From positions 1 to 42,145 of the forward strand of contig SKTZ01000031.1 in assembly GCA_007122335.1 (NCBI GenBank): a DNA stretch of 42,145 nt, written 5' to 3'. The notes beneath the pieces are model-generated. The model made no database searches. It worked only from the letters and a program-made list of their open reading frames with translations, and was not told the origin of the DNA. The translations under genes were made by a program, and so were the position numbers. The DNA comes from Bacillota bacterium. GTDB lineage: Bacteria > Bacillota > Halanaerobiia > B1SED10-174. Below are positions 241 to 10,015 of this stretch, one piece after another. Positions within the stretch are counted from its first letter, which is position 1. Every line of letters begins with the position of its first letter.

Positions 241-1032
241 ATGGAAGGATCTCTCTGGAAACATTTTAACATTAAAAAATTTAAAAAAGGTTCCCTGCAT
301 CCTGAAGAGGATAGTGTGGTTATTGAAAATCCTTTAACCATAATGCTTAACGGCTTCGAAATTCTAACCCTGCAAATAACACCACAGTACCAGGAGGAAC
401 TGGCTACGGGATTTTTGTTTGGAGAGGGTTTTATTGAATCTGCAAAGGAAATTACCCATTTTAAATTTAACTCTGACCTGAGTGTTATTGATGTAGAAAC
501 GAAAAATGAAAAAAAACCCGACCTTTCCCGGATGGGAAAACGAGTAATGTCAAGCGGTTGTGGCCGGGGTTTTTCTTTCAGCAGTAAAAGGCAGCGGGAA
601 AAAATAAATACCCTCCCTCCGGGACCAATTTTCCCCGCAAAAATATTTTTTGAGTTAATGGGTTTAATGGAAAAGGAAGGTGAGGTTTTTTCCAAAACAG
701 GAGGAACTCATTCTGCAGCCCTGGGAGATAAAAGCGGAAATTTATTATTTGCCTGTGAAGATATCGGGCGGCACAATGCTGTGGATAAGGTTTTTGGATG
801 GGCGGGGAAAAATGGTTTTCCACTGGAGGACAAAGTGTTGGTTTGTAGCGGTAGAATTTCTTCGGAAATGGTTACAAAAGCCCTGGTTAATAAGGTGCGG
901 GTTGTGGTTTCCCGTTCTGCTCCTACCAGCCAGGGAGTGGAAAGGGCCCGGGAGTTTAACTTAACCTTAATAGGATTCTGCCGGGGCCCCCGCTTCAATC
1001 TTTATACCGGAGAAGAAAGGGTTAAACCCTGA
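241..1032 (+). CDS. fdhD: Formate dehydrogenase accessory sulfurtransferase FdhD
   Basis: 263 residues, the usual family length. FdhD passes sulfur from a cysteine desulfurase to the Mo/W-bis-PGD cofactor and is needed for active formate dehydrogenase; it acts in the cytoplasm. Visible family motifs in order: GFLFGEGFI (57-65), the loop SSGCGRG with its single Cys at 107, GGTHSAAL (154-161), CEDIGRHNAVDKV (172-184), SGRISSEMV (203-211) and SRSAPTS (224-230). The loop has one Cys rather than the CxxC of E. coli; I believe many clostridial and archaeal homologues do too, so I do not call it defective. ATG at 241 follows GGAGGGAG. No formate dehydrogenase is in the window. FdhD partners are often selenoproteins, which fits the selenocysteine msrA nearby. 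Confidence 0.95.
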   Translation: MEGSLWKHFNIKKFKKGSLHPEEDSVVIENPLTIMLNGFEILTLQITPQYQEELATGFLFGEGFIESAKEITHFKFNSDLSVIDVETKNEKKPDLSRMGKRVMSSGCGRGFSFSSKRQREKINTLPPGPIFPAKIFFELMGLMEKEGEVFSKTGGTHSAALGDKSGNLLFACEDIGRHNAVDKVFGWAGKNGFPLEDKVLVCSGRISSEMVTKALVNKVRVVVSRSAPTSQGVERAREFNLTLIGFCRGPRFNLYTGEERVKP

Positions 1033-6838: not shown

Positions 6839-7948
6839 ATGCAAAAGCGCAGTTTTGGTTCCAACGGAGCAAAGATAACTCCCATATCTTTTGGGGCAAT
6901 GAGAATCCCCCACCAAGCAGATAAAGCAACTCCAATTATTCGGAGAGCCATTGACATGGGGATCAATTATATTGATACCGCTCCCTTTTACTGCGACAGT
7001 AAAAGCGAGGACCTGGTTGGTGAGGCTCTTCAGGATGGTTACAGGGAAAAAGTTTATATTTCTACCAAGTGTCCGGTGGGCACGAAAGATGAATATGACC
7101 TGGACGAATTTTTGCATCAGTCGCTAAAAAGACTTAAAACCGATTATATCGACTTTTACCACCTCTGGAGTTTAAATGGGGAGAATTACCGGGAAAAAGT
7201 ACTGGCCCCAGGAGGTTTCTTAGAAAAAGCGGTAAAAGCCCAGGAAAAGGGGTTTATCAAAAATATCAGCTTTTCTTTCCACGGGGAAGTTGAAGACCTC
7301 ATAGAGATTATCCAGGATGGCCATTTTACAACTATGCTGGTTCAGTACAACATCCTTAACCGGGAGAACGAAGAAGCGATTGCCCTGGCCCGGGAAAAAG
7401 GCCTGGGTGTTGCAATAATGGGGCCGGTTGCAGGTGGTCGCCTGGCCAGACCTTCAAAAGTCATTGAAAAGATGCTCCCTAAAGGAGTCAGTACCTCTGC
7501 AGAACTTGCCCTGCGCTTTGTCCTTGCCAATTCTGATGTGAGTACTGCTGTTTCGGGAATGGAGAACATAGAAATGGTGGAAGAAAACATAGCCACGGCT
7601 TCCCGGCCAGAACCTTTAAGCAAAGAAGAACACGAAAAAATCAAGTCCACTACAGAGGAACTCAAAGCCCTGGCTGAGCTGTACTGCACGAGCTGCGGGT
7701 ACTGCATGCCCTGTCCACATGACGTTAATATTCCTGCTAACTTCCAGTTGATGAATTATTACCGGGTTTATGACCTTAAGGATTATGCCCGCGAGGTATA
7801 TCAAAAAATGGAAGCTGGAGAAAAATTTGTTCCCCAGGGGAAAACCGCGCAACACTGTATCGAATGTGGAGAATGTATGGATAAATGTCCGCAGAATATT
7901 GATATAATTAAACAGTTGCAAGAGGTTAAGGAAGCATTAAAAAAATAG
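6839..7948 (+). CDS. Aldo-keto reductase with C-terminal ferredoxin domain
   Basis: 369 residues. The N-terminal ~270 form an aldo-keto reductase barrel with the catalytic tetrad in view: Asp46 and Tyr51 in YIDTAPFYCDS, Lys77 in ISTKCP, and His108 in FYHLWS. The C-terminal ~90 residues carry two Cys clusters, CTSCGYCMPCP and CIECGECMDKCP, each able to bind a [4Fe-4S] cluster. This two-domain form (COG1453) is common in anaerobes; substrate and electron partner are unknown. ATG at 6839 follows GAGGAGG. It ends at a strong bidirectional terminator and faces msrA. Confidence 0.93.
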   Translation: MQKRSFGSNGAKITPISFGAMRIPHQADKATPIIRRAIDMGINYIDTAPFYCDSKSEDLVGEALQDGYREKVYISTKCPVGTKDEYDLDEFLHQSLKRLKTDYIDFYHLWSLNGENYREKVLAPGGFLEKAVKAQEKGFIKNISFSFHGEVEDLIEIIQDGHFTTMLVQYNILNRENEEAIALAREKGLGVAIMGPVAGGRLARPSKVIEKMLPKGVSTSAELALRFVLANSDVSTAVSGMENIEMVEENIATASRPEPLSKEEHEKIKSTTEELKALAELYCTSCGYCMPCPHDVNIPANFQLMNYYRVYDLKDYAREVYQKMEAGEKFVPQGKTAQHCIECGECMDKCPQNIDIIKQLQEVKEALKK

Positions 7949-7969
7949 GCCCGGGGGGCCTATTTTTTT
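7942..7969. terminator. Bidirectional terminator between aldo-keto reductase and msrA
   Basis: ATAGGCC and GGCCTAT form a GC-rich stem flanked by an A tract on the left and seven T on the right, so it can stop transcription on both strands. It lies between two convergent genes. Confidence 0.85.
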
Positions 7970-7973
7970 GCTA

Positions 7974-8705
7974 TTAATTCCGCCGCTGGAAAGCGGAGAT
8001 TAAATCTGATTGAGCTCTCTCGCTCAATCCCAGTTCCGGGAGATCTCTTTCCAGTTCTTCTGAGGTCCCGTAACCCATGATATAGCCGTTTATTCTTGCT
8101 GCAGCTGTAGAATAAACCAGGTCAGTAAAGTCAGGATAAATTTCTTTCAATTCTCCGATTAATCTTCGATTGGCCTGCAGGTAATATTTTTGGTGGTAAT
8201 CTTCAGCAGAATAAAAATTGGTGTAGGGTTCAATGGCAGTATAAACGTTTCTTCCTGTTTTTTCAGCAAGTTCTTCCCGTGTTTTTTCAGCAAGTTCTTT
8301 TTGTTCAGGGTTGTGATAAAATACTACAGCCCTGTACTGCCGGGAATAGGGGTAAGAGGAAGGGTTGTGGTCACTCCAGAATATTTCCAGGAGAGCGGAA
8401 TAAGAAATCTGGTCGGGATTAAATTTAATCTGTAAGGTTTCCGTGTGATCTCCCATATTTCGGTAGGTGGGGTCGGGAGTTGTCCCGCCAGCATAACCCA
8501 CTACAGTACTGATGACACCATCTAATTGCCCGAACCGGGCATCCGGTCCCCAGAATCAGCCCAGAGCAAATGTGGCAAGTTCATAATTTTCAGGAGAGTT
8601 GTCGTCGATAGGTGGTATTTCGGCCTGCACTTCATTCACCTCCAGGGGAAAAGCCAGGAAAAGCAGAGCAATAATAAAAGCACCAAAAAGGGTAATTTTT
8701 AACAT
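7974..8705 (-). CDS. msrA: Exported selenocysteine-type peptide methionine sulfoxide reductase MsrA (in-frame UGA read as Sec)
   Basis: Reading from ATG at 8705 (after AGGGGGGA) to the stop at 7974 gives 243 residues with a single in-frame TGA at 8558-8556. Around it the protein reads ELATFALG-U-FWGPDARFG, where U is the TGA. In MsrA this position is the catalytic Cys of the GCFWG motif. Downstream, VGYAGGTTPDPTYRNMGDHTE and the YHQKYY region are intact MsrA. Residues 1-28 (hydrophobic core, end VQA-E) form a Sec signal peptide, so the enzyme should work outside the cytoplasm, reducing methionine-S-sulfoxide in envelope proteins. No Cys occurs elsewhere in the chain. A hairpin with a GUU loop lies at the right distance for a bacterial SECIS. 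Selenocysteine MsrA is known from some bacteria and algae. A start at the ATG at 8501 would lack the catalytic residue and is not favoured. Confidence 0.87.
8527..8541 (-). promoter_or_regulatory. Candidate bacterial SECIS hairpin in msrA
   Basis: On the coding (minus) strand TGCCCG-GTT-CGGGCA forms a perfect 6-bp stem with a 3-base loop beginning GU. Twenty bases separate the TGA (8558-8556) from the loop, within the range seen for bacterial SECIS elements, where an apical G and U contact SelB. Basis: sequence plus known SECIS rules; folding was not computed. Confidence 0.7.
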
Positions 8706-8773
8706 CACTATTCCCCCCTAAATTATTCGTGCTTATATTATAACTCTTTTTAATAATAATTACCATTATTATT

Positions 8774-10015
8774 TTAACTTTTTTTAGCTGAGAGCGGGAG
8801 CAGGATAGCAAAAATAGCGGAAAGCAGGAATGAGAAAAGAGCAAACAGGATTGAAAATAAGTAGGTCCCTGAGAAATCGTATAAGAACCCCCCCATAAAA
8901 GTACCCAGGGCAGGACCCAAACCCATACAGATAAGGGTTGAGAGTCCCCAGATTTTTCCCAGAGAAGCCCTACCAAATATTGAACCGGCATATCCAGCCA
9001 CTCCCCCCGGCTCAATTGCCCAGTAAATTGTGAAAAGAATTGCAGAGATGGCTCCTCCGATAAGGGAAACCCGGGTGGAAAAAAGGAGTAAACAGGCCAG
9101 AACCCCTGAAAGCGGGGCAATTATCAGCATTATTTTCCGGCCCCGCGCTTCTTTGTCCTGGCGGGCGACAATTCGGTCTGCGAAAATACCCATCAGGGGC
9201 ATGAGCACTATCCCGCTTAATCCTATAAGGACATAAAGGCCGGTTGCAGTCCTTAAGGGAAGACCGATTTCCCGGACCCAGAACATAATCACCTGGGTCC
9301 AGATTAAAAATTCTCCGACCAGGCTGAAGAAGAAAGCCAGGATTGCTCCCCAGATTGCAAAGGAAGAGAAGGCCTGCTTTATGGTCCAGGTGGTAGCAGA
9401 GGCCGCTTTTGGCTGTCCTCCCGGTTGAATACCATAATTTTCGGGGTCTTTTTTACTGAGCAGGGTTGCCAGGATAAGAGCTCCGAGAATAACCAGACTG
9501 AGAACCTGCATTGCTGCCCGCCAGTCTACAGTAGAAAGAATATTTTCTACCCCCAGGCTTAATATTACCTGGGAAACGGGGGCTCCCATGAACGCCCATC
9601 CCCACATTCTGGCGTAGTTGGGTCCAACAAACCATTTTCGAACTGACACTGTTGAGGATACCCAGAGCATTCCAGTGCCAATGCCAGCAAATATGGCATA
9701 TGAAGCCAGGTAGGCGGGATAAGTCTGGACCTGACTGGTCAGAAAAAAACCGAGAGCTCCGAATACTGCTCCAATTGCATAAGCTGGCCGGGGCCCCCAG
9801 CGGTCGATAATTACCCCGCTGCCAAAGGCGGTTAGAGCATAAATGGTCATCATAAGGGAGTAACCAAGGGAAACCTGACCGACTGTCCAGCCCAGGTCCT
9901 CCTGCATGGGGTCCAGGAGAACTGAAAAGGTTGCCCGGTAGCCAAAAAGGCAAAAAACAGCCAGCCAGGCTGAGGCTATTACCTGAATTCCTAACTTCTG
10001 GTCTGGTTTTAACAT
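8774..10015 (-). CDS. MFS transporter, oxalate/formate antiporter-like
   Basis: 413 residues with about 12 hydrophobic segments in two halves, an inner-membrane secondary carrier. It opens with IASAWLAVFCLFGYRATFSVLLDPMQEDLGW and has the loop GSGVIIDRWGPRPAYAIGA (the MFS motif between TM2 and TM3) and a related one, MGIFADRI, in the second half. These look like the OFA / monocarboxylate branch, suggesting export or uptake of an organic acid, but the substrate cannot be read from sequence. ATG at 10015 follows GGAGGGAAGGCA. It diverges from the DUF6485 operon. The A/T-rich gap to msrA (8706-8773) shows no clear hairpin. Confidence 0.88.
   Translation of the reverse strand: MLKPDQKLGIQVIASAWLAVFCLFGYRATFSVLLDPMQEDLGWTVGQVSLGYSLMMTIYALTAFGSGVIIDRWGPRPAYAIGAVFGALGFFLTSQVQTYPAYLASYAIFAGIGTGMLWVSSTVSVRKWFVGPNYARMWGWAFMGAPVSQVILSLGVENILSTVDWRAAMQVLSLVILGALILATLLSKKDPENYGIQPGGQPKAASATTWTIKQAFSSFAIWGAILAFFFSLVGEFLIWTQVIMFWVREIGLPLRTATGLYVLIGLSGIVLMPLMGIFADRIVARQDKEARGRKIMLIIAPLSGVLACLLLFSTRVSLIGGAISAILFTIYWAIEPGGVAGYAGSIFGRASLGKIWGLSTLICMGLGPALGTFMGGFLYDFSGTYLFSILFALFSFLLSAIFAILLPLSAKKS

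Follow-up and report, generated by a model that had tools for sequence, protein, structure and literature searches.

A selenocysteine MsrA gene of a Halanaerobiia bacterium with a signal peptide and a probable second translation start

The DNA analysed here (the window) is a stretch of 42,145 nucleotides, contig SKTZ01000031.1 of a Bacillota bacterium of the Halanaerobiia. Its minus strand carries msrA (8705-7974), with an ATG start at 8705-8703, a TAA stop at 7976-7974 and an in-frame TGA at 8558-8556. Translation of the locus with table 11 yielded only a 175-aa ORF with a GTG start at 8501, from which the active site is absent. When the TGA was read as selenocysteine (Sec), an uninterrupted frame of 243 aa was obtained, in which ATFALG-U-FWGPDARFG is intact and the TGA occupies the catalytic position. 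The initial annotation had described an apparent 175-residue gene from 8501 without the catalytic N-terminus, a full MsrA with signal peptide on reading through the TGA, and a TGA in place of the Cys of GCFWG (LG-U-FWG) between intact flanks; all of this was borne out, as was its placement of FdhD in the same window (241-1032). An MFS transporter gene (8774..10015, minus strand) is located upstream of msrA, and a gene for an aldo-keto reductase with a 4Fe-4S domain (6839..7948, plus strand) converges on it, the two being separated by an intrinsic-terminator-like hairpin at 7938..7970 (no strand assigned). The transporter and reductase genes are neighbours of msrA in three congeners too; a function shared with msrA was considered for them and rejected, only the gene order being conserved in the genus. 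Halobacteroidaceae MAGs with isolate names suggestive of sediment are close to the host, a salt-loving anaerobe.

The encoded protein matched the Pfam family PMSR (PF01625) at 5.6e-44 with the catalytic residues present, and the MsrA proteins of the named relatives L047-L049 are 80-93% identical to it. Residue 50 is its sole Cys or Sec and a resolving Cys is absent, in agreement with the earlier statement that it contains no further Cys. Alignment to known Sec-MsrA, proposed in the initial annotation, led to CoMsrA of Clostridium (Alkaliphilus) oremlandii (PDB 4lwj-4lwm, 4u66, 7c13) as the best PDB match (E 7e-57), with 191 residues aligned gaplessly and reaching CoMsrA residue 195. CoMsrA likewise has Sec in a GUFWG motif and no resolving Cys; a Sec-MsrA of this kind is already known and not new. 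All seven CoMsrA active-site residues named in PMC4333827, among them Y47, E55, Q89, Y90, H137 and Y140, are kept in the window protein. A C-terminal helical domain as in CoMsrA is indicated at 8019..8120 (minus strand) by a profile match and the CoMsrA alignment, the match to PF20939 (helical domain of selenoprotein MsrA) being weak at 19.8 bits against a family cut-off of 23.7. A single-sequence AlphaFold model of the window protein reached a pLDDT of 43; solved homologues exist. The catalytic residue of CoMsrA is at position 16, which leaves no room for a signal peptide, whereas the window MsrA carries some 28 residues of signal peptide and has a probable second start.

Genome-wide gene presence was assessed by family searches. 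The genes for Sec insertion, which had been named as a check on the host genome, were all found: selB (383 bits), tRNA-Sec with a UCA anticodon (77 bits), and selA adjoining selD on one contig. The selD gene is itself a TGA gene, with the TGA at its GUGCK motif. Two peroxiredoxin-type genes of the same genome (L143, G000:C139:19640-20035; L144, G000:C20:6005-6358) also have a catalytic TGA (FVUPTEL and GGUTKEA, respectively) and hairpins 3′ of it. The TGA of msrA is conserved in 4/4 genus genomes having the gene; it aligns with the redox Cys of homologues, and 77 distinct homologues, drawn from many phyla, have TGA at this codon. Downstream of the TGA, dN/dS was 0.06-0.08 where dS was measurable, which indicates strongly purifying selection. 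In the congener L018 the stop codon of msrA is TGA, so that TGA has not been reassigned to sense across the board.

A bacterial SECIS hairpin was located at 8527..8541 (minus strand), with the 6-bp stem UGCCCG/CGGGCA and the apical loop GUU at 8535-8533. It is the hairpin of the initial annotation, which had placed a 6-bp stem with a GUU loop 20 bases after the TGA; it is the loop, with its G first, that starts 20 nt past the TGA. Folding had also been suggested as a check, and the MFE of the window hairpin alone was unremarkable (z -1.2), yet the stem covaries across Sec relatives. This was determined by fixed-register pair counting in 104 distinct homologues, with bases numbered after the TGA and the stem at 14-20/24-30, against a null model of 500 synonymous-codon shuffles. 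In the 77 Sec relatives the seven stem positions were paired in 425/539 cells compared to 278±9 after shuffling, a value reached by 0/500 shuffles (z=16), and in the 27 Cys relatives the same positions were paired at chance (z 1.0). The significance of the hairpin thus derives from the cross-homologue comparison and not from the MFE. Compensating exchanges were observed in the Sec genes at 16-28 (G-C to U-A), 15-29 (U-A to C-G) and 20-24 (G-C to A-U), a Ser at codon 10 is encoded by AGY in those having Ser at codon 6, and the loop is GUU in most Sec relatives. The Halanaerobiaceae-type Sec relatives (L021-L028, L032) fall outside the common register and presumably use another hairpin. No match to the SECIS family was obtained in an Rfam search. 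Taken with the decoding genes, the comparison of homologues makes it very well supported that residue 50 of the window MsrA is selenocysteine.

In a quick tree, in which 26/101 inner branches were strongly supported, a minimum of eight changes is needed between the Sec and Cys forms, and the genus of the window forms its own clade, separate from the Halanaerobium-type fusions. The Syntrophobacterales locus L082 (msrA match 574-1200) has a Cys codon followed by a full SECIS-type hairpin, GCCCGGTTCGGGC, which is probably a fossil SECIS left by a recent Sec-to-Cys conversion. Within the class, Sec-MsrA is also fused to MsrB, in the order MsrA-MsrB in L021, L028 and L032 and MsrB-MsrA in L022, L023, L041 and L042, all with hairpins outside the common register. 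The exported MsrA-MsrB fusions of Halanaerobium and relatives resemble the window protein in having a signal peptide and an MsrA type with helical extension; they differ by the fused MsrB, by Cys in Halanaerobium (Sec in some relatives) and by a linker Cys pair. Such pairs were seen in L024, L027, L028, L032 and similar exported fusions (ECSPC, ECVTFC, GCEATC, DCSTSC) and possibly act as a resolving relay that is absent from the stand-alone enzyme. Regarding gene neighbourhood, a SelO gene lies upstream of Sec-MsrA in the Desulfuromonadales loci L110 and L115. In Syntrophomonadaceae MAGs, the gene before Sec-MsrA encodes a large Wzy_C/O-antigen-ligase-like protein at the scanned loci L066 and L070, and probably, by similar size and place, at L080, L083 and L092.

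The first 28 residues of the window MsrA (MLKITLFGAFIIALLFLAFPLEVNEVQA, followed by E; 8622..8705, minus strand) were assigned as signal peptide by hydrophobicity, with a likely cleavage between VQA and E. Three congeners retain an N-terminal hydrophobic segment. Among relatives, signal peptides were assigned with rules for hydrophobicity and lipoboxes and not with SignalP; the relatives comprised the nearest 80 of 467 together with genomes of the class. The hydrophobicity rule gave a hydrophobic segment at the N-terminus of 64/77 Sec relatives, and a lipobox was present in 36 of the 62 having a called start (2.2 expected from shuffles), frequencies that are valid for this clade only and come from sequences that are not independent. 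Most of the non-lipobox members of those 62 have a type I-like cleavage site, as does the window protein. Export therefore appears to be common among Sec-MsrA of this clade. A description of Sec-MsrA export was not found in the open-access full-text literature searched, where absence is not proof; three papers on prokaryotic selenoproteins (PMC13188914, PMC9312934, PMC1794560) mention Sec-MsrA, with nothing on export in the relevant passages. What goes beyond the known Sec-MsrA is thus the apparently common export, and a putative second start after the signal peptide.

The first start of msrA is preceded by a Shine-Dalgarno (SD) sequence (AGGGGGGA, 8712..8719, minus strand) with a duplex energy of -10.9. 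An internal SD, GGAGGTGA, is embedded in the signal-peptide codons (8643-8636, minus strand), five bases upstream of an in-frame GTG at codon 26 (8628..8630, minus strand), the proposed start of a 218-aa cytoplasmic form. Codons 22-27 read GAG GTG AAT GAA GTG CAG, of which GAG, GTG, GAA, GTG and CAG are invariant in the four genus genomes, although just 25% of codons are identical among them. In these genomes the SD duplex energies for codon 26 were -10.6, -10.6, -10.6 and -11.6 compared to -10.9 to -12.1 for codon 1; the remaining in-frame ATG, GTG and TTG codons of msrA gave +2.6 to -3.5, except -8.9 once in L020. The internal start is GTG and not ATG in the genus of the window, which counts against the two-start reading. 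In the 62 exported Sec relatives, an ATG is present after the signal and ahead of the catalytic domain in 48 (17.7 expected). The SD energy of these ATGs averaged -7.3 compared to -2.5 at other internal ATGs (p 5e-14) and was stronger than in synonymous shuffles (p 2e-10). Without choice of the best ATG, the mean was -5.6 (all 68), against -2.6 in other lipoprotein-like ORFs of the same loci (p 5e-4). In 29/62 exported relatives an in-frame start follows a GGAGG-type core at 3-10 nt, against 3.8±1.9 in codon-order shuffles, with spacings of mostly 6-9. Anoxynatronum buryatiense (L101) shows the layout with two starts, and Malonomonas rubra (L110) lacks an internal one. From internal start to Sec the median distance is 31 residues, and cytoplasmic relatives start at about the same place. 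Most Cys MsrAB fusions differ from the window msrA in having no internal SD site, and other lipoprotein-like ORFs have one less often. These patterns suggest that the one msrA gene probably gives rise to two products, an exported and a cytoplasmic one. It is likely, moreover, that a widespread clade of Sec-MsrA, spanning Bacillota, Chloroflexota, Myxococcota, Planctomycetota, Thermodesulfobacteriota and others, makes two selenoenzymes per gene, one exported and often a lipoprotein, the other cytoplasmic, by means of two translation starts, the second ribosome binding site lying inside signal-peptide or linker codons.

Several other readings of the locus were weighed against this one. Were msrA a pseudogene, the product of a sequencing error, or a gene in which UGA is decoded as another amino acid, the 175-aa fragment lacking the active site, which is all that is made without recoding, would be accounted for. 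The recurrence of TGA at this codon in 77 homologues, purifying selection downstream of it, conservation of the SECIS, a complete Sec machinery and the TGA that terminates the same gene in L018 all oppose this, and it can be regarded as refuted for practical purposes. It is very unlikely that the enzyme is cytoplasmic only, with the internal codon as the true start and the in-frame stretch upstream untranslated. The cytoplasmic relatives L050, L054 and L057 do start at the corresponding position, but the SD of the first start is equally strong, the upstream stretch is open with a hydrophobic core in all congeners and a dN/dS below 1, and lipoboxes occur in relatives far more often than expected.

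A stronger competitor, to which we nevertheless give a low probability, is a Sec-MsrA that is only exported, with ATG 8705 as its sole start and its action outside the membrane. The internal SD and GTG would then be incidental or a pausing site; internal SD-like sequences could serve ribosome pausing during membrane targeting. The signal peptide and the first SD are both strong and conserved. The single MsrB that the genome yielded has an N-terminal anchor, like those of the genus, so that repair outside the cytoplasm would have a complete A and B pair; the genome also encodes a TlpA-like WCPSC protein that is exported, and a CcdA-like protein. However, start codons in frame and at canonical distance from the internal SD occur far above chance, and pausing needs no start; within the genus, neither the genes for anchored MsrB nor those for exported TlpA-like proteins have a post-signal SD/start site. 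The earlier description of the protein as secreted therefore holds as far as the signal peptide is concerned, and a protein that is secreted only is probably wrong in view of the second start past it.

Initiation of this kind has a precedent in Neisseria pilB, where an internal AUG gives a cytoplasmic form beside the exported one (PMC6210582); in a later gonococcus study the short PilB form was not seen (PMC6372556). Neisseria PilB/PilBAB is like the proposed window msrA in that a single gene would supply an exported and an internally initiated cytoplasmic form, and differs in being a Cys enzyme, a Trx-MsrA-MsrB fusion with resolving Cys and another export architecture.

The initial annotation had also raised the question how the enzyme is re-reduced outside the cytoplasm without a resolving Cys. 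In part the answer was already known, as the reductant of CoMsrA, itself devoid of a resolving Cys, is glutaredoxin and not thioredoxin (PMC4479559); for the exported form a candidate can be named. Two glutaredoxin-like ORFs are present in the genome, the complete one without signal peptide. A TlpA-like protein with signal peptide and WCPSC is encoded on contig C101 and was matched at least partly in all four MsrA-bearing genomes. The protein has a long extra C-terminal stretch, and its gene (L150 5109-7083, minus strand) directly follows a membrane polyferredoxin (Fer4_5) gene and overlaps the end of it. A CcdA-like membrane protein is encoded on contig C107; of the MsrA-bearing genus genomes searched for its gene, G002 and G003 gave none. 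In this genome msrA has no reductant gene linked to it, and none recurs among the scanned neighbours of relatives; 20 of these (Wzy_C, FtsX, ETF, SelO, rubrerythrin and others) were examined for a conserved operon partner pointing to the reductant, and none emerged. In Streptococcus pneumoniae, CcdA and TlpA-like lipoproteins feed an exported Msr (CcdA-Etrx-MsrAB2; PMC3914529), and this system is proposed as model for the exported form in the window. As an operon link is absent, the pairing of TlpA and CcdA with msrA is drawn by analogy to it, and the TlpA-like WCPSC protein is the candidate reductant. MsrAB2 differs in being a Cys enzyme with an intramolecular disulphide, whereas the window MsrA has neither a resolving Cys nor linkage to a reductant.

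Taken as a whole, the following account is considered quite likely on the comparative evidence. The locus is a functional msrA gene in which SelA, SelB, SelD and tRNA-Sec insert Sec at the UGA, aided by the SECIS hairpin directly downstream. From the ATG at codon 1 a precursor would be made and exported via the signal peptide, and from the GTG at codon 26, with its own embedded SD, a cytoplasmic enzyme with the whole catalytic domain. Judged by homology and the conserved active-site residues, methionine-S-sulfoxide would be reduced by selenol/selenenic-acid chemistry as in CoMsrA, without a resolving Cys. A glutaredoxin-like protein may re-reduce the cytoplasmic form, as for CoMsrA, and the exported TlpA-like WCPSC thioredoxin, fed by the CcdA-like membrane protein, may re-reduce the exported one.

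An exported selenoprotein without a resolving thiol raises the question how its selenenic acid is reduced outside the cytoplasm, for which this genome offers candidates that can be named. If the reading with two starts is true, one overlapping stretch of DNA serves as export signal and as second ribosome binding site, and both compartments would share a single UGA and a single SECIS, since that site lies in the signal-peptide or linker codons. Bacteria would thus have a compact way of placing one enzyme in two compartments, which annotation pipelines miss, as UGA recoding likewise can escape them, and many Sec-MsrA genes would serve two compartments simultaneously.
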